Origin: Apophysomyces variabilis
Taxonomy: Eukaryota; Mucoromycota; Mucoromycetes; Mucorales; Mucoraceae
Length of the DNA: 64,000 nucleotides
Reading direction: 5' to 3'
Assembly (NCBI GenBank): GCA_002749535.1
Contig: MZZL01000376.1
Span: 372,001-436,000, forward strand
Of the stretch, positions 16,231 to 61,686 are shown one piece after another. The notes under the pieces are model-generated. The model was given only the letters and a program-made list of their open reading frames with translations. It was not told where the DNA came from and ran no database searches. Made by a program: the position numbers and the translations under genes. Positions within the stretch are counted from its first letter, which is position 1, and the number at the start of each line of letters is the position of its first letter.

Positions 16231-19200
16231 TTACATGAAGTACATAACTAAACAAACATATAAGTTCGATGGTCTTTCCTTTCATGACCTGCAGCAACTT
16301 ACCCTTCTGCAGATTTTGCTTTACAACACCGTAGCTAGCAAGCTGTTGCTCACTGTCCAAACTTTCACTGGTCGCTTCAATGTCGGACCAATTCTCGCCT
16401 TGACGATGATAACGTGCACGTTCAGCAACCAAATCAGCATAGTATGCTGGAGGCACAAGGGAAACAGAGCGCGTAGCTCTACCATAGGTAAAGCACAAAC
16501 GATAGGTTAATTCTTGTAAAGAATCAGAACTGAAATCGTTTTCGTCCTTCAACACATGGTAGTGCGTGGGGCGCGATGTGCCTTGTAATCCTGCATGGGA
16601 TTGCAAGTCTATCATAACATTGATAAGTATTAACTCCGCTAGCTATCATACTACGTACAAAAGTCAAATTCAAACGGGTGCACGATGCCGGTATCAACCA
16701 CCTAATTGTGATATGAACGTTTATCTTGACATAGGTATCCACAAATACGTACTGTGCCAGGCTGACAATTGCCGGATTTGTCCGCATCTCGATCGGTAAG
16801 AGGAAAGAATCTTGCATGGTGGCGTTTCTGGACGACAACAAACGTAAGCTTTGGGTTGTAGCCCTTCTCCAAAGAGTTACAGGCAGCTTAAAGAGGAACA
16901 AAGTGTGAGATAAATGTTAAACAAGCTTATAATCACATTGCCAACCTTCGATAGCATCGATTTCGGCCTTCTTCACAATCTTGAATTGACCTTCTGAAAC
17001 ACCATCACGATAAAACAGGATACGGGCGGGTTTTTGACCGCAGCTTTGATAGAAAATCTTCAAGAGCTCTTTCACCATGTTGGCCAAATCGGCAATGATC
17101 TCAGTACGGTGAGCCTGAACCCGGATGGCGCTTGCATATTTTGCTACGCGAGAATCCATGCTAGCAACAAGAGCGGCGATAGATGGGCGTGTGGTATCGC
17201 CTTCAGGACTATAAGTTCACAATTACAACAGAGGATGTAAACGCAACCTACCAGGAGCAGGATGTGTTACATCAGCACCAAAAACAATAGTTGGCTTTTC
17301 AGTAATAAAGGGAATCTGTGCTGGTGGCAATAGTATGTTCTGGCCACCCAATTTAAGATTCACCTTCAAACAGACATTGGCACAATATTGATGCTTAGCC
17401 TGCTGAACGTGCTTATATTGCAAGCATTGGGTTGGAATACCGAGGACTATGAACAAATATTGAGAAAAGCAAAGATCATCAAGCTAACGACGGTTACCAG
17501 TATCTGAAATACGCTTGATTTCAGCGTACAGATCAGTGATAAGACCAGGCAAGATGCAAACAATCAGCTGGGGCTGCAATTTAGCAGCATTGCCCGCCTT
17601 CATATAAGCATCTCTCAAAATGCCATCAATAGCTCCTTGAGGATTAGCATTTGCGAGGGGTGGCGCACGGTTCGTAACATTCTATTGCACGTTAAATACG
17701 AGCTGAATATCCAAGAAAATAATTACCAATCCAAGTTCGGTGAAAGTCTGAACCATCATACGGATAAACTTGTCGATCGCTTCTTTAGAGGCTCTGTGGT
17801 TGAAATTCACAACAGACCAGGACTTCAACTCTGCGCCTACCGAGACTTTCTTGCCTACCATGTTGTAGACGCCATTATTGGGAGTGAACGTGGAACCATA
17901 GGAAATAAGCTGCGGTAGAGGCAGCACTCGACCTTCGACCATAGCCATTTCGGGCTTGACAGTCATGTTGAATTGTTGCATATATGGATTTTTATAGTCG
18001 AGCAATTGGAAACCTTGCTTGATTTTGTTTGCACGGACGCTGGGCTTCTGACAAGTGAATTTAATGACCTCCGTAGTCTGGTTACCGTCCAGTTTCTTTG
18101 CGTAGCGTTGACCTGGGGTGATGTGGCACACTTCCATAGGGAGAAAAATGTTCTTCTTCACGACCACACAAGGTAAGAATGGATAAGCTAAGCGTTTGTT
18201 GTACTGCTTAGAGAAATAAGCGGCAACGCTCATCTCAGCGCCATTGGCATCCTGGAACATTGTGTTTTCTGCGGTGCCAGGGGTAATCTTGCTAATCATG
18301 AACGTAGGGCGCTTTTCGCCTCTATGAACACAGGTAATCTTGATCCCCTTGAGAAATCTAGCTATCTTGCTGCGCTCTCGTTCAGAAATGCCAGCGCGCA
18401 AATCATCCACAGAACGGCGTCCCAGCAGTTTTGCAACAATTTCCGAAAGTGGTCCGGATTCATAATACGTGGTGGCACTAACATCCACATTCACCATCAT
18501 TTTGCCTTTTTTTTTTCCATTACTGAATGTTTTTTGCGTTTTATCGGTATGGATTTACTTACCGAAAGTAGGACGAGCTGATTGATAATATCCTTGCCAG
18601 ATCTCTACACCTCCACCAATGGAGCGTTTATCGTTGGGAAGATAGAATGAACTGCCTTTGCTCGAGTGATTCAATGATGGCCAGTAACGGATCAAATGAT
18701 CCAAGACGGTGATGGCTAAAACAGATAATGAATGGAAAACGCTATACGCTGGAAGTGTTTACCGGAAATGCAGTTATTGGACAGACGAGCTTCGCGTCGT
18801 AGGAAAAGACGAAGCTCTTCCATGTTTACATGATTCACTTTTTTGATGTGAACTTTGAAGGTTTCTGCTCCTCTTTTGGTATCAGACTCAGGGACTGTAA
18901 CCTTCAAGGCGAGAAGTCATAAAGTGTGAATATACTCAATAAATTTATTTCTTTTATGCATACCTCAAAGACCTTCGAGTGATCTGCACCCAAAGGCAAG
19001 ATCTTTGGAGCATAAGCGTTCTTGCGTCCATCAAAGACCACTTTGGCGTCTCTGAAAATGTCTCCGTTGTCGTTCTTTTCTAAGGCGCACCAGACCAAAC
19101 GTTGGACCTTAACGGGGACGGCGGGATGAATAGCAACATCATAGTGAATGATGTCTTGAATGGGGAATGAGGTAACTTCAAAGAAGTTTGCGCGGAATTT

Positions 19201-53069: not shown

Positions 53070-54539
53070 ATACCCCTTTTTTCTTTACATACAAAATCCT
53101 TCTACATTCCCACTGTGTATAACCGAGTTCCAAAAAAAATACAAAAACAAATAAATCGAAGTCTATGGCCTACTGTCCACGGGACGTGCATCAAGAACAT
53201 TTACTGTGTTTTTCCCATTTGTCTGCGTGTTTCTATTTTTTATTTGCGGACTGGGATTCAAGTTTTTGCGGAATCCAAAAAATGATTTTTGCATGATTGG
53301 ATGAAAAATATTTGCGGTCGGACTACACTTCTTTGCATACAGTCGTGTCATTGCATTATCTATGACAAGATACTAAGCGTTCATTCCGTGGCAATCCAAT
53401 CTTTTGTGATTGTCTAATAGACAAAATTTAAGATATAATAGAAGAAAAGGAGTACATAACTACATTCAGGGAAAATAAAAGTGGAATATAAGGCAATACA
53501 ATTGAGCAGAACCGGAATTGGGTACCATTGTCCTGACAGCTCCTAACACCATAACTGACAGAAACGAAAATAATATAATCAATGACGTATAGAAACGAAC
53601 GAAGAGGGTTTATTTCCTCTACAGATGTTCCACACCTTCTATCAGATTGAATCCATTTTTTACTCTTGGGAAAACTATTGTCTTACCTCTGAATTGTTGT
53701 CATCCATAAGACATCCATCGATTACTTATCCATGACTGTGATTTTTTGGTTTCAGTGACCCGAGCAATATAAACGCGAAGGGACAACACCTTTTCAATTC
53801 TTTGGCTCTGTTCTCCAAAAACATCCCCGGTATGTACTTCGCATTGATCATATGTACAGAATGACTGATATCCCTCTTCTGTAACCTTTAGCCTGCATGA
53901 CCTCTGTCCCGAATCACCTTGTTTGTGTGAGTAAGCTCCCTGCACTCCACTAGGTAAGTGAAAAAGAAATCTTGTCTGTTTATGCACAGTGTCATTCATT
54001 ATCTTCTGCTTCCAAGTCCTCGCCAGGTGTTGCATCGCTTCAAGTCCTCTGCAGTGCGTTACACACGAACCGGCCACTCTCAGATGCCGTGCCTTTCTCT
54101 CGCCGCCCCCACCGATACAGGTGCGGGGCCGGCCCCTGTCTTTGGGCAGGATTACCCTTCGGGGCTAAGTAAAAAAAAAAAAATGTCAAGCTATCCTTCC
54201 ATTTACTAACCATGAACATTCTTTTACGCTGCTCGAATGAATTTTGTGTCCACGGAAGGACCAAATTGAGGTAAGTAAAATATATTTCCCGCATAATCCA
54301 TTAAAATGACGCATATTTCTATCCTTTTAGCGCAAACTTGATCCTTGCATGGACGCAAAATTTATTTAGAGTAGCGTAAAAAATTGTTCAATAAACAGTA
54401 TATCAGTTGCAACTTTGGGTGTAATGGATGTTTCCCGATTAGCTCATGAAAGTGCTTATGCAAGTTAAAAAGTTGATTGTGAATAGGCATTGTTGAGTCA
54501 CACAATGAGACTGAATTTAAAAAAGAAACCTGTTATATG
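53070..54539. other. Intergenic with a GC-rich palindromic patch
   Basis: AT-rich except about 54040-54172, where GC content rises sharply and the 12-base palindrome GGGGCCGGCCCC (54125-54136) is followed by CCCTTCGGGG (54156-54165) and a poly-A run. This is 3' of the Fanzor-like gene on its strand. No protein recognised. Confidence 0.5.
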
Positions 54540-54573
54540 TCCGTCATAGCGACGGATGCCGGCCTTCGCATCC
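54540..54573 (-). ncRNA. Candidate structured RNA 3' of the Fanzor-like gene
   Basis: Two adjacent perfect stems lie about 140 bases past the stop codon of the Fanzor-like gene, on the same strand. One is TCCGTC/GACGGA at 54540-54545 and 54551-54556 with a 5-base loop. The other is GGATGC/GCATCC at 54554-54559 and 54568-54573 with an 8-base loop. The stems share three bases, so they may be alternatives. TnpB and Fanzor guide RNAs come from structured DNA at the 3' end of the gene, so position and structure fit, but expression is unknown. Confidence 0.35.
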
Positions 54574-54712
54574 TGTTTATAAAATAAGCAAATTACTTGT
54601 GCAGATAACTAACAGTAACACCTACCAGTATGGTGGCTTTCTGAAGACGACTGTACGCACCTATAGTAAAGATATATTAGCTGTTAAAGCTGCCACACTT
54701 TAAATATGTCGG

Positions 54713-57700
54713 TTACCTTTGAACGGTGGTATCGGCAATATTGGATATTCCAGCGTCAAAATGGCTGGGATCAAATGGTGGCAACGTTATCCTCTCTGCA
54801 GAAAAAAGGTTGCTGATCGCCGCTAGTCCGATGGCCACGGCGGCTTGAACGTCCCGATTTTGAGTCGTACGCCCTGCTTTAAAAGTAACACACTTCGAGT
54901 TGACGCAGCGCGAGCTTCCATTCATAGTACGCCATTTAATTTCCTTGTAACGACGCCCTTTTGGGTGAATTATCTTCTGAAAACAGAATACGCATGTTTG
55001 CGAGCTACGATGCTCATCTGTCATTGCCACTGGGGTGTACCTACGGTGTCTCGCCCGTAACCATTTGCCTCCACGCTTAGGATGGCCTTTCAATCTGGAC
55101 CCAACACACGTCCCTTGGGTGCCAATCGCCATAACTGGTATTACCCTCCTTCCGCTATCATGTGGCCCCGCTTCCATCGCGATCTTTCTTCTCTCGTTTG
55201 CAGCCACTCTATCGTATATTCTCTCCTTGTAGAGATCTTGTATCACCTTTTCTTTGTGCCACCTGTTTGAATGGTAAAAATCCCTGAGCGTCTTTCTACA
55301 GCTCCGACCAATCTATAAATGTGTATGTTATCGATAGTTGTCCAAAAAAGACTAACGATTACCTTTTGACAACGAATAATATCTTGGACTGACATAGCTT
55401 TCTCCATCGAGGCTTCTTTCAATTGCTCTTCGGCTGCAAGAACCTCTGTATTCGACTGTGGCAATTATCACATAAGCACAACATATTGTAGCTGGCTTAT
55501 TTACCTTCTTTCGTCGCTCCCGTTTCTTGCGGAATGTCCTTGCAAGTGTTTTTTCATCGAGCGATTTTGCCGTGATACGTATCGGCTTTGGTAGCTGGAG
55601 CATGTTAGTAGGAGAGACATCGATATCATCATCGTGATCATTGACGTTATTGACACCCAGCATCGAATATCGATTGTAAAGCTGTAAATGGAAATCTGCT
55701 CTTTGTCTCGTAATAGGCACTGTAGTCGACAGCACTTGCAAACCGTAATCAGTGCCACTGAACGTTAGTACATTGTTCTGATCTTCTAAAAGTGGCCCAA
55801 GGTCTAGTCGGCCTACGCTGTCTTCACAGCCGGGGCGTCTCCCACTTTGGGGTCTGCACAGGCTATCCTCCTCCTCCTCCTCATCCTCCTCCTCATTTTC
55901 CTCGTCGTTATTGTCGTTGTGCTTGTCCTTCTTTTTCTCCTTTTCTTTTTTGTATTTGGTATCTTCTTCATCACCGTCTGCTTCCTCCATTTTCTCGTCT
56001 TCTCCTCCTTTGCTTTTTCTCTCTTTTCTGCCAGCAGGACTTTTACCTTTTTTCTTTTGATGCGCTTTCACCAACTGTACGATTCTGTATATTAATATAC
56101 GCTTTTATGTTGATGCAAGTTTGTATTCAACGTTACCTGTTCCAACTTGTACTTCTTCCGTCTTGCATTTGCTAACCGATCGTGTACTTGATTCAAAGCC
56201 ATTTGTTGGTTTGACCAGTTCAATTTTGCAGCTTTTAAAGCTTCATAGCTCAGTTTCTGCTGTTGATATGCTGCTTCCTTTTCAGTAACGTTTTCATGTT
56301 TGTCTGCCTTTCTTTTGTCCCTTATGCGCTTTTGACAAATAGCTTGATTTTCCTGATAGCTAGAGCGCAAACCTGCAACTAACTTCGTGGCTTCTTTCAC
56401 AAGCTTGGTGTGTTGACCTTTCAACGTTTCAAGAGTTTTTACATCCTTCTTTGTATCATCGAGAGTCTTTGCTAACTCAGGCGTGCTTTGTTGTTCGATG
56501 CTCGGCTCTTGGACGTAGGGTTCCTTTTTCCTATAATACTTCTTTCGTCTCGCCTCGTACCGTGATTCTATGGGTCTTCTTTGTTCACAAACGTTACCAT
56601 CAATAATTGCTGTTTTCTGCGGAGTTACTGTGATGCGCCAGCGTGGTACCAACCCACGCTCCTTGCATGTTTTTTCAATAGCCTCTACGTTGAAAAACGA
56701 TCCAATCACTGTTCGCTTTTCTGCTATTGCTTCGTCTCTGTTTGTGAACACTGAGCCGTCTGCCTTGTAAATATCAAGCTGGGCATAGCTTGACCCAAAC
56801 ATTTCATACATGGCTACTGCATCTAGTGGTAGTGCGTGAACAGAAGCAGGGCTGATTGTGGGACATATCGAAGCAGTGAACTCTTGATATCCAATCGAAC
56901 AGAGCAAAGCGTTCGCCAATACTACGAAATTGAGACGCAGCGGTATACAAGGAGCAATTTGTCCCCTAATGACGTACGGCCTTAATGCGTTTGCGATATT
57001 CACCACGGTATCGATTTCTTGAGGAGAAAATGCATCGTCCGCATGAGAGGTAGCTAGCACATCTTCCACTGTTACATGGCCGCTGATCTTATCTGACTGT
57101 AGGAGGGCTTTGGTAATAGCTTGCAGGATACCGAGCTTTCGCCTGCTTGGCTCACTTGTCTCCTCCTTCTCCTCCTCCTCCAGTTCTTCTTCTATTTGTT
57201 CGAACACACCGATGTGTGTTTCACCGAGGGATATCAAAATCTTCGCTTGCTGCTCCTATTTTGCCACGTAAGCATATATCCTAATCAATAATGAAGTTTA
57301 CCTCTTCTTTTGTAACCGACGCTCGGTTGTTCATTTGCTCTACTTTTATTGATTTTGGGTTGGACCTGGACTCCGATCGCGCCAGCAATTGGTTTTCGAG
57401 CCGTTCGATCGCCTCAGCACACGTCGCCGCACGCGTGGCTAGCCTTACCAAGATATCATCTTCTTCTTCCTGCTCGATCTGCTTCTTCAAGTTTCGCAAT
57501 TGCTTTTTCTCGTTTTTTAATTTCCTTTTGATAGCTTTTTTCCGATATTGGTACTTGATCACTTGTTGCTGCTCGATTTCTTTTTCTCTTGCTAGTTTTG
57601 CCTTCTCTCTGATTTCTCGTACTTTTTCTTCACGCCTTGGTGCAAGATTAACACGGAGTAGAACACGCAATAAGTGATTCATGCTTCTGTTGTAAAGAGA

Positions 57701-58783
57701 TCCTGCCCACATATTCTTTAAATTCGTCGAAAATTGCTTCATGTAAAAATGAGACGTCCTGCAAAGACCATCGGGAATTACAGGCTGATTGTCAAGAGTT
57801 TGATCATGGAACTGCATCCATAAGTAGTGTTTTTCTTTGCTCACGTTTCCTTTTGTGCCAAAATATAACCCGTGCAGAAATTGGATATGGTTCTCATTGA
57901 ACATGGAAAGTAGATCGTTGTTTCGCCTGCCTGGCATCTCGTCAAGAAACTGCGAAAGATTATCTGGCATTGGGGCTACAGGTACAAAATAGTCATCTAC
58001 CAGCATACTTTCGTCACGTAATTTTTCTTTGGGTACAACTGTACGGATATCGAAGCCAGTTGATGTTTGGTCCAATTCAGCTTTCACTGAACCTGATGCT
58101 GGGTCTAGAGACAAGGAAACTGACACGTATTTCAACATGGTAGCACGTACAACAGTTGCCAAGTCGGACACATAATCCGTCATTTGCACGGACGTCGACT
58201 CTACCGTGTGCATAAAAATCCTTTTCAGATTTTCGTCAAGATCCGGCCGCAGTACGGATTTCAAAGGAACTGTACATGTCCTGAAAAGGTTATCCGAGTC
58301 TTCATCTTTCTTTTTGGGTCTGTTCTGCTTTCCTTCAGCTTTGACCACAGCCAAGACATCATCGAAGTTATCGACCGCGCATTGTCTCCAAAATTCGCCT
58401 GTTTTATGGGACGACGAGAGTCTAGAACGTATCTGTTTCTCTATTGTCCCTTTAGGGACGCCCGCTTTTTTGTCTGCTTCCTCAAAACTTCCTCGAGGGA
58501 TTCTGTCTGCTTTTTCAAGAGCTTGTCGCAAACGATCCATCCTTTTTTCTTGAGCCTTCAGTCTCTTTTCTTTTGTTTTGGCAGACTGTTTTCCTTTCTT
58601 TGTTTTTCTAGAATTTTTTGTCTCATTTTTCCACAGTTCGTTTGCTATAGTACTCTTCAACTTCTGTAAAAGTACTCCAAGCAAGGTATTTTTGGCTTGA
58701 TCGTAGGATATCTGAGGCTCTGTTTGCCTTTTCCTTTTTCTTCTGGCGCTACCGCGTGGTGTAGGTAATTGTATTTCGTTCAT
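54713..58783 (-). CDS. Large intact Fanzor/TnpB-like RNA-guided nuclease candidate
   Basis: Five exons, 58783-57302, 57255-56137, 56074-55505, 55455-55363 and 55312-54713, give 1287 residues; all four introns are phase 0. Exon 1 encodes a lysine-rich region with a possible helix-turn-helix (near residues 90-120) and unknown folded parts (HYLWMQFHDQTLDNQPVIPD). Exon 2 adds more unknown sequence and a coiled coil. Exon 3 has a long Glu/Lys/Asp run, then RuvC-I (VLTFSGTDYGLQVLSTTVP, D976). Exon 5 holds a helical hairpin (KERIYDRVAANERRK), the RuvC-II strand (VIPVMAIGTQGT, lacking the usual Glu), SRLKGHPKRGGKWLR, then TDEHRSSQTC with E1188. The zinc ribbon uses C1195/C1198 and C1224/C1229, and RuvC-III is QNRDVQAA (D1242). 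The motif order is that of TnpB/Fanzor. The 870-residue N-terminal extension is far longer than in TnpB. Whether it is mobile or domesticated is open. Confidence 0.85.
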
Positions 58784-59238
58784 AAAAAATACAAGAAATG
58801 TTGGATCTAGTTCTCAAAAGTAGAACGGAAAGGTGATATGCGAATTGTTCTCTGAACTGTTGTCCAATTTTCACTTGACAGATTGGACTGCGAACTTTTC
58901 TGATAAAAAAAAAACTGAAACTTTATCACTTTATTTATCGTGGCTAGCTCTCATGTAGTTGAAAAGGAGAAAGAAGATAACGAGAAAAATTCGATTCGGA
59001 CAACAGAGAAAAAATGGACAAGTCTTTATAACGGTTGGCAAAGAAGGGAAAGACCAAGGATACAAAGTATAAAGAACCTAGGTTATAGTGATTGCTATTG
59101 AGAAAGAAGCGGCAATACGAATAAAGAAAATCACAGGGAAGCAAGGGATAAAGGTTAAGCTGACTTGAATATTCATGATCGCACTCCCACTTTTATTCCT
59201 TACCTTTTACTACCTTTATATCCAACCAATCTTGGTTC
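58784..59238. other. 5' flank of the Fanzor-like gene
   Basis: AT-rich. It contains a perfect 7-base inverted repeat (GTCCAAT 58862-58868 / ATTGGAC 58882-58888) that might be near an element end or be a regulatory hairpin. No terminal inverted repeat matching the 3' side was found. Confidence 0.4.
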
Positions 59239-59706
59239 ATGGAAAAAGATGGAAAAGGTTCGCTTGCAACGTATCAGCGAAAGAAGAAAACAAAGTACGA
59301 GAGCAGAAAAGGCACACAATTAAATGTCTTTGTGTCGGATACAGGCCGCATAATTGCTCCAGTTGGTTGGGTTGATTTAGCCTTGCATCAAAAGATCGAT
59401 AAAAGCCGGGCACTTGCTGTACCCTTCCATCTCAAAATCAAAGACCTGCATGCTCCAGAAATCGCGTGGCCTCTGTTCGCAGTAACATCGTACATTGCAA
59501 CAGAAATCTCATACAGTTGCGTAAACGCGCCTCCGTGTTTACATAAAGGTAATACATGGACAAATTGAGCGGTACTTCACCTGTATAATCTTTTTGGATT
59601 GCCCCCATCAACGGTCGATGTAATTGTATTTTTTCTCATAGACTTGTGGGTGATTTTTACTCTGCTGCCACATCTTCAAGTCCTTCCCATAAGAATGCCG
59701 ATGTGA
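59239..59706 (+). CDS. Possible small gene, function unknown
   Basis: The ATG at 59239 opens a basic N-terminus (MEKDGKGSLATYQRKKKTKY) followed by an ordered-looking stretch (DTGRIIAPVGWVDLALHQK, AVPFHLKIKDLHAPEIAWPL). Splicing at 59548 (GTAATA) and 59642 (after CTCATAG) keeps the frame and gives 124 residues; without splicing it stops at 59568. No family recognised. It is divergent from the Fanzor-like gene and could be part of the same element, or a fossil. Confidence 0.35.
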
Positions 59707-61686
59707 GTGTAATCTCAACGCTGTTTGAGTAAAGTAAAGACGGCAATCAACTTTTACGTACGAATCCCCCGTAAAATGTCCAAATTGCTAAGGTGTACCG
59801 TCGTTTTCTTTGGGATATCCTTGTATGGAAACCACTTCTTCAAGACTAAGTTTTGCCTTGATTACGATGTGACCATCTGCGTACTGCTGACCGCTACGAT
59901 AGACCTACAGAAAATTCAGCAAGAAAATGCGTCCTACGGTTTAAATAAAGAATGAAATAGTAAGCACGTTATCATGAATTGCTTTCTGTTTCGATTTATA
60001 TTGCGCTTTTGTGTTCGAGCTCTGCATCTCCGTTTTCAAACTCAATGCATGCACCACAACTTCATGGTCCCGCATACAGTTTTGAATCGACTCCTATAAT
60101 GCAGGCTCAATAGCATCAGCACTACTGCTTGCAACCGTTAGAGGGATATCTTCCTGCTGTTAGTCTGGGGTACATGCTTCGGAGGCACTGCTGTTGAACG
60201 ATAATATTTGGAACGTTCGATGTAGTGCTTCACTAGCCTTTTAAAGATCTAGTTATCAAAAACTTTTAAGGAAAAAGGAAAGGAAAAGAAGTACATTTAC
60301 AATCTTTATATAAAGAACAGCCATTTTGGGGAAAACGTACCCGGTTCGTTGATATATCCCCGCCATTACTACACTGTCTTATCTAAGTCAATAAAAACTT
60401 AACTTTAACTAGGAGATTTTCTCCAAGTTCAAAGAACCAAATACGGCCAGCTTCCAGATTTCTGATTATGTGAAGCTATGGTACTTTGTAAAAGGTATTT
60501 AAAAAGCTTAACACCTCGCTTATCAGTGTCAATGTATATGACTGAAAGCCCGAACTACTGATGATTTGATTCCATTTTGCGTTTAATAAGGGCAGCGATG
60601 TGTTGCAAATTCTTGCTGGCACACGACAATAGGCATGTGTGTGGAAGAAACGCTATACTACAGATTAACCGAATGCTAAATAGATAACCCATTCAAACAG
60701 AAGCTTACTATAGTTTGAATTCGATCTGTTCTTTCTCTTTATTTTTTAGCTTCCATTACTTTTTTTCTCCAAGAAGATTAAGAAGACAATGGTGAATGAA
60801 GCTCACATTATCATTAGTTTATCCACAGTTGTCTGCTTTGGATTCCTGTTGTTATGTTCCCTTTTCTTTATATATTTTTTAACCTTATACACCTAACCTT
60901 ATCTGAATTTAGATTTAGGTGGAAGTGACACACACAGAGATACTGTGAAGAGAGAGTTTTTGAAAATGTACGATCCCTGGATCATGGCCGGTCTTGTTGA
61001 GTATTTCAGTCTGGTCACAATTTGACTGGTGACCTAAGTCATGACCCACTCCTGTTATACCCTAATAGTACATTATTCTCGGTAGCTCATATCCTAGCCT
61101 CCTGATATGCAATGAAACTCTGTCTACTAACCCTTTGTCCTACAAAAGTCCTGCAGAATGATCGCAACCAGTCATGCAATTAACCATCCTTAGCTGCTTA
61201 GTAGGGATTTAGCAGATCGCATAACGATAGGAGCTATTTAATGAAGTCTGTTTTTGTTACATTATGTCTTTCCAATACTGTAATATAGCTTCTTTGCATA
61301 AGAAAGCTAAAGCGCTTTAAGTACTCTGGATTTCTAGAGCTTTTGCACATATGCAACTACAATGAATAGAGTAGAATATATAGATAATTCTGAGAAATAT
61401 ACATGTTGCTTTTCTGCTATTCATCAGCAGAACAGTTTGTTAACAGGGTAAAGCTATGCTTTGCATTCTATGCATCTTTAGCTAAAACAACTTTTGCAAA
61501 TGCTATGCATTCTTTGACCGCAATGACTGGGGAGATTATTGTATCGCACCGTTATCACAAACCGGGTCTGTGTGTGCTGCTTATGCAGTTTTTTTACTTC
61601 TTTTGGTATATGTGACTTTTTGCTGGTGGGTCGTAAATTGGATTTGGAACTGTTTCACAGCAGCGAACATCTTTTATCCATCCATC
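59707..61686. other. Long intergenic stretch
   Basis: A plus-strand frame at 59725-59955 and a minus-strand coding-like stretch near 59960-60230 (with stops) may be fossils. I cannot name either. From 60300 to 61680 I see only AT-rich DNA, ending in the eIF1 promoter. Confidence 0.4.

Follow-up and report, generated by a model that had tools for sequence, protein, structure and literature searches.

A giant Fanzor/TnpB-like gene carried by a multicopy mobile element of Apophysomyces variabilis

The gene and its predicted nuclease core

The stretch of DNA analysed here (the window; 64,000 nucleotides of contig MZZL01000376.1 of the fungus Apophysomyces variabilis) carries on its minus strand a giant gene with a C-terminus like those of the Fanzor and TnpB proteins, and this gene lies in a mobile element of which the same genome holds many copies. 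Its five exons (58783-54713) splice in frame to give 1287 residues and a TAA stop, all four introns (46, 62, 49, and 50 bp) run from GT to AG in phase 0, and the length of each exon is divisible by three. This reproduces exactly the five-exon, phase-0 gene of 1287 residues described in an earlier note on this DNA, and the gene is apparently intact, as that note had also claimed, with no frameshift, internal stop or lost splice site in the window copy.

The N-terminal region is encoded by exon 1 (57302..58783, residues 1-494), which is defined by the splice model and by copies in the same genome, and by exon 2 (56137..57255, residues 495-867), which aligns in register with the homologues C79, P0001, P0002, and P0003. 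Exon 3 (55505..56074, residues 868-1057; splice model and alignment) leads from an acidic linker to the RuvC-I block GTDYG (55742..55756, residues 974-978, with D976; splice model and the signature test described below), and is followed by the short exon 4 (55363..55455, residues 1058-1088; splice model). Exon 5 (54713..55312, residues 1089-1287 and the stop), identified from the splice model, a profile search of the PDB and homology, contains E1188 of the motif DEHRS, a candidate alternative RuvC-II glutamate (55013..55015), a zinc ribbon, C1195/C1198...C1224/C1229 (54890..54994; splice model and PDB profile), and D1242 of the RuvC-III motif NRD (residues 1240-1242; D1242 at 54851..54853). 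The order and positions of GTDYG, the zinc ribbon and NRD are those given before, while the earlier figure of about 870 residues ahead of the RuvC core has to be revised, as 973 residues precede GTDYG and 867 is the number that precedes exon 3.

A second family in the genome (family II, the window gene belonging to family I) has the identical exon structure and frame at 35-59% amino acid identity, depending on the segment, and this recurrence means that the gene model is not a product of chance. The family II relative C79 splices to 1257 residues, with four phase-0 introns at matching places in the alignment.

The published signature of Fanzor and TnpB proteins is D-X(125,275)-[TS][TS]xx-C4-X(5,50)-RD (PMC3627910). 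With its C4 part encoded as C..C.{10,60}C.{2,6}C, the signature is present in all four full-length proteins, namely the window protein, C79, and the two Mortierellaceae proteins P0001 and P0002, whereas none of 2000 shuffled versions of the window protein contains it. The Asp, the Glu, the four Cys and the second Asp are invariant across the four aligned C-termini. When these were used for a profile search of the PDB, SpuFz1 was the single match at E up to 10, a weak one (E 0.044), in which, at an alignment offset of 394, E1188 falls on E541 and D1242 on D606, which are named metal ligands of SpuFz1 (PMC10432273). A comparison by hhalign of nine giant C-termini (P0003, P0004, P0005, and P0011 omitted) with ordinary Fanzor C-termini of the same genome (six of the eight loci L001-L008; L005 and L008 omitted) gave a probability of 77.5 (P 1.9e-5), and the control with a reversed profile gave 0.9 (P 0.061).

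A further link is provided by family III of the same genome, an open reading frame (ORF) of which shares 37% identity with exon 5 (E 7.7e-16) and has the motifs VDPG, RIRGHARRG, and NEYNTSKTC. It matches the Pfam domain PF07282 with E 3.3e-5, scoring 24.4 bits alone and 26.6 bits with its neighbours at a cut-off of 26.3, such that family III appears to bridge the giant exon 5 to the PF07282 proteins. The Fanzor clade (Fanzor1, Fanzor2, and pro-Fanzor TnpB) is described as having an alternative RuvC-II glutamate and a DPG motif at RuvC-I (PMC10711439). The glutamate has its counterpart in E1188, which is invariant in alignment A1 and aligned with E541 of SpuFz1; the corresponding RuvC-I block, judged by eye, reads GGDPG in the relative P0005 and VDPG in family III (L061). 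Judged by its signature and in-frame splice, the window gene would encode a giant protein of the Fanzor/TnpB superfamily, predicted to be a RuvC nuclease, and the earlier assignment of the C-terminus is borne out by the signature, the weak SpuFz1 match, the hhalign comparison and the family III link. Ordinary Fanzor-like genes and fragments (e.g., L001-L008) are plentiful in this genome, with 73 PF07282 matches in total, some of them of family III.

The approximately 970 residues that precede RuvC-I recur in register in family II and in Mortierellaceae proteins of 1346 and 1467 residues (P0001 of Mortierella alpina and P0002 of Actinomortierella ambigua, respectively), which align along the protein. 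Between families I and II the amino acid identity is 38% in exon 1, 44% in exon 2, and 59% in exon 5, and the third codon position is the most divergent in all five segments, with the synonymous divergence (dS) saturated. A Pfam search with four exons and homologues returned no family above its cut-off for the N-terminus, a profile of the N-terminal alignment A6 found no convincing relative in the PDB, and hhalign of the full profiles, bearing on the REC/WED N-terminal architecture of Fanzor1, detected no similarity. The N-terminus would seem, from its pattern of conservation, to be a lineage-specific region under selection. Two candidate likenesses were rejected: ATPTB3, the single match of A6 in the PDB at E up to 5 (E 0.31), was judged to be chance, and a resemblance to the 'TDG' of WED domains, noticed by eye, was dropped as hhalign was unsupportive and the reversed control scored higher.

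Outside this genome, 11 homologues were found among the matches listed (8000 candidates were scored in each search), of which 10 are from Mortierellaceae (Mortierella, Actinomortierella, and Benniella) and one is a metagenome protein. No relative was confirmed among 78 pattern stretches in viral contigs or among 57 in prokaryote genomes. The earlier suggestion of a distinct Fanzor branch in Mucorales is supported in so far as the lineage is distinct and its N-terminus very long, but the outside homologues, 10 of the 11 being from Mortierellaceae, lend no support to its assignment to Mucorales.

The element, its ends and its 3' hairpin

Family I has at least 15 exon-1 copies in its own genome, 98-100% identical (among the best 36 of 262 candidates scored). 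Where the gene is covered almost whole, which is the case for 14 copies, eight are intact-looking, the window copy included, in that their reading frames are free of frameshifts and internal stops and their splice sites are preserved (the loci used begin after the first 16 coding bases), and one of the eight is a codon shorter; the remaining six are broken or truncated. A further copy, C39, lies outside the 14 that were checked, and its exon 2 match contains stops. For family II, 12 copies are 100% identical over about 4.96 kb among the matches listed, and no gene besides the giant Fanzor was recognised in this 4.96-kb element. The flanks are all distinct, with 12 right and 11 left flanks compared in family I and 11 of each in family II. 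What the earlier note missed is that the gene it had recognised sits in a multicopy element that was recently mobile, has defined ends and includes a conserved 3' hairpin.

From the comparison of copies, the family I element in the window extends over 54482..61069 on the minus strand, its right terminus ending in CCCTAATAGT, while its left terminus, on the 3' side of the gene, is about 20 bp shorter than that of the other copies. At the right end lies the core AGT (61067..61069), which is followed by the target ACAT. No terminal inverted repeats (TIRs) were found at the ends of the family I and II elements, and both ends have fixed cores, AGT in family I and GGTAT in family II (GGTAA at one right end). 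These cores were not taken for a simple target site duplication (TSD), since all sites compared have an identical core. The 2.3-kb 5' region of the family I element (58784..61069, minus strand) contains no convincing gene by homology and ORF check. Stretches about 70% similar to it occur elsewhere in the genome, one of which, at C73, adjoins a decayed giant-Fanzor exon 1, and a plus-strand ORF at 59179-59568 is not called a gene because its C73 homologue has stops and it has no Pfam match.

The target DNA is conserved beside the 5' end of the gene, with 1.17, 1.17, 0.90, and 1.41 bits at successive positions in family I (farther positions at most 0.54) and 1.80, 1.80, and 0.86 bits in family II (farther positions at most 0.81). 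In the sense of the gene this side reads ATGTACT in family I, with the variants AGGTACT and GTCACT, and (G/A)AAATACCG in family II. The flanks on the 3' side of the gene, which would be the guide side, are mostly random. This asymmetry is that expected of the target-adjacent motif (TAM) and guide sides of an RNA-guided nuclease. One family I insertion sits in a repeat, and five paralogous empty sites of this repeat are unbroken across the joined junction, with one core rather than two. This comparison is of a single locus (L090-L094, empty, with L047/L048, occupied); the alignment excludes a sixth, more distant paralogue, C86 (locus L082; 75% across the joined site).

The 3' untranslated regions (UTRs) of families I and II have GTCGCTATGAC in common, which lies within a hairpin found by pattern search and alignment, UCCGUC-GCUAU-GACGGA in the window (54540..54556, minus strand), with the core GUC-GCUAU-GAC. 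This hairpin is a candidate element of a guide-RNA scaffold. The genome has 43 occurrences of the pattern YGTCGCTATGACR, compared with one of the reversed-pattern control, and 34 of the 43 sites lie 159-525 bp downstream of a giant-Fanzor exon-5 match on the same strand, with none within 800 bp upstream of such a match (expectation per random site, 0.0012). The other nine comprise two ends of family I elements located at the ends of contigs, three apparent relatives of family II and four sites apparently due to chance. Two stem pairs covary in an alignment of 10 sequences, both sides being altered in family I with pairing kept. No Rfam match was found over 54300-61200 at E up to 1.

Other repeats are seen near these elements. 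A repeat of about 1.2 kb at 53198-54402 in the window stops about 80 bp short of the element and is 85-93% identical (longer matches) to sequences at about 40 other places among the matches listed. A related repeat, with an ORF that by eye resembles a DDE transposase, adjoins the C79 copy of family II, and another such repeat is located about 60 bp from the family I copy C112. Their closeness to several giant-Fanzor elements possibly reflects a shared insertion preference. By eye, a TGA[CG]TCA motif is also present near the end of the element on the 3' side of the gene in both families (54494-54500 in the window; about 730-745 in L060). Farther away in the window, at 17682-18554 on the minus strand, is a piece of an Argonaute gene with PAZ, linker and Mid domains.

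How the element may be retained and moved

We propose, with a probability of roughly 0.7, that the giant Fanzor of this TIR-less element acts as an RNA-guided nuclease with a guide derived from the flank, and in this way aids the retention or spread of the element. The C-terminal RuvC core and zinc ribbon would cut DNA, a transcript running through the 3'-UTR hairpin and across the end of the element would supply the scaffold of the guide RNA, with the flanking DNA as the guide itself, and the TAM would be the conserved motif, ATGTACT in family I and (G/A)AAATACCG in family II. The Fanzor would cut a matching empty allele at TAM and guide, and repair templated by the occupied copy would then restore or spread the element.

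Several results weigh against this proposal. Concerning the protein, the window sequence has GTDYG rather than DPG at RuvC-I, exon 5 scores 12.8 bits with the curated Pfam TNB domain PF07282, below the cut-off of 26.3, and a PDB search with the single exon-5 sequence returned no match; with the 13-row profile A4, an SMC5 sequence (E 0.076) ranked ahead of SpuFz1 (E 0.08), which was second of five PDB matches, and hhalign found no similarity of the N-terminus to ordinary Fanzors, the reversed control scoring higher. Concerning the insertion sites, the guide side is not random throughout, as the base directly preceding the family II core reaches 1.36 bits and a single position in family I reaches 0.81, and all five empty paralogues have, at a distance of 17 bases from the junction, an additional 29 bases that are lacking in the occupied copy. 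All five also have T beside GTA where the occupied copy has A, such that at this one locus the sites matching its presumed guide are without the exact TAM-like motif. Concerning the RNA, the covariation comes from two independent lineages only and the pattern itself restricted the outer pair to Y and R, and for the whole 277-nt 3' region the predicted folding is not superior to that of shuffled sequences (z 0.61).

How the element is inserted in the first place is a separate matter. The genome has 18 matches to Phage_integrase (tyrosine recombinase), 10 of them within open frames of 1272-1371 residues, which are possibly DIRS- or Crypton-type elements, and serine recombinases, searched for with PF00239, gave no match in the genome, where the control was positive in 10 of 14 genomes. 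As the 18 matches lie outside the mapped elements and PF00239 is without a match, there are two main readings of the movement, in trans or by the N-terminus itself. In the former, which we consider a real if tentative possibility falling short of an even chance, the element would be a non-autonomous passenger moved by a Crypton- or DIRS-type tyrosine recombinase via a circle with inverted arms around a spacer, and the Fanzor would aid retention only. This fits the integrase matches, the lack of TIRs and of any TSD beyond the fixed core, and a 4.96-kb family II element in which a transposase gene was not found. In family I, the circle junction as inferred shows perfect inverted arms of 8 bp and a 7-nt spacer, a result reached by 17 of 5000 shuffles, but the arms of the family II junction are just 5 bp, reached by 794 of 5000, which is not significant. 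Moreover, when positions are compared, the 18 integrase matches all fall outside the mapped elements of families I and II, the nearest being about 6 kb away, and DUF3435 (PF11917) had no match in the genome, although the control genomes also gave none.

The other reading, a single-protein transposon in which the N-terminus of about 970 residues would serve as the recombinase or transposase and be fused to the RNA-guided nuclease, is doubtful. It would account for a family II element that has 12 near-identical copies yet no second gene found, for the conservation of the N-terminus across families and in Mortierellaceae with an excess of third-position changes, and for a genome in which PF00239 found no serine recombinase. 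What speaks against it is that the N-terminus has no Pfam or PDB match to a transposase, and that a tyrosine-recombinase-like H..Y pair, noticed there by eye, was dropped as a candidate because it is missing from P0004, P0005, and P0007. About equally doubtful is a one-protein RNA-guided transposon in its full form, in which a new recombinase/transposase-Fanzor fusion would insert the element at the TAM, after which the guide copied from the flank would home into, or keep, the site. The protein might also be a dead or domesticated relative with an inactive RuvC core, spread by other enzymes only. The replacement of DPG by DYG and the low profile scores are in its favour, but the four aligned C-termini agree at every predicted catalytic and zinc-binding position (Asp, Glu, four Cys, and Asp), eight of 14 checked family I copies are intact-looking, and this is the most improbable of these explanations.

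Relation to known systems and significance

In IS607 elements a short fixed core is found at the insertion site, as it is in the giant-Fanzor elements. IS607 TnpB and Fanzor2 further resemble the giant proteins in the alternative glutamate (PMC10711439), and their elements in the lack of TIRs, but the serine recombinase associated with them has no counterpart by PF00239 in this genome. Fanzors are carried by eukaryotic mobile elements (PMC3627910), as is the giant gene, which shares with Fanzor1 proteins (SpuFz1, GtFz1, and PpFz1) the order of a RuvC-I Asp, an alternative Glu in DE-x-x-S, a C4 zinc ribbon and RD, and has the weak profile match to SpuFz1. Fanzor1 proteins are mostly 600-700 residues in length (PMC11423790), whereas the giant proteins have 1257-1467 residues, DYG in place of DPG and some 970 residues ahead of RuvC-I without detected similarity. 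In the main texts available of the open literature on Fanzors, including those of Mucor, Mortierella, and Parasitella, we found no Fanzor of comparable size described.

There is also a likeness in description to MCi-2 and MCi-5 of Mucor circinelloides, unclassified Fanzor elements with several copies, no TIRs and no clear transposase of their own, the copies of MCi-2 being 99% identical over 6 kb (PMC3627910). They differ from the giant-Fanzor elements, in a comparison by description only, in having TSDs of 11-12 bp, ATAATTNNNN(N), or of 6 bp, ATTTAT (PMC3627910), where a fixed core of 3-5 bp is found here. A relationship between MCi-2 of Mucor and the giant-Fanzor elements is possible. Cryptons also lack TIRs and have short direct repeats at their ends (PMC3627910), as do the elements described here, but in the family II element no tyrosine recombinase ORF was found, and the N-terminus has no Pfam match above cut-off.

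For the conserved N-terminus, a large region of about 970 residues, no relative was found outside the lineage. Fanzors have been characterised biochemically, and what they do for their host elements in living eukaryotes is little understood. Here, a single genome has an apparently recent system in which many copies of the gene for a giant enzyme look intact, the ends are mapped, and there are candidates for both the guide hairpin and the TAM, and such a system makes the role of a Fanzor in the retention or movement of a transposon directly testable.

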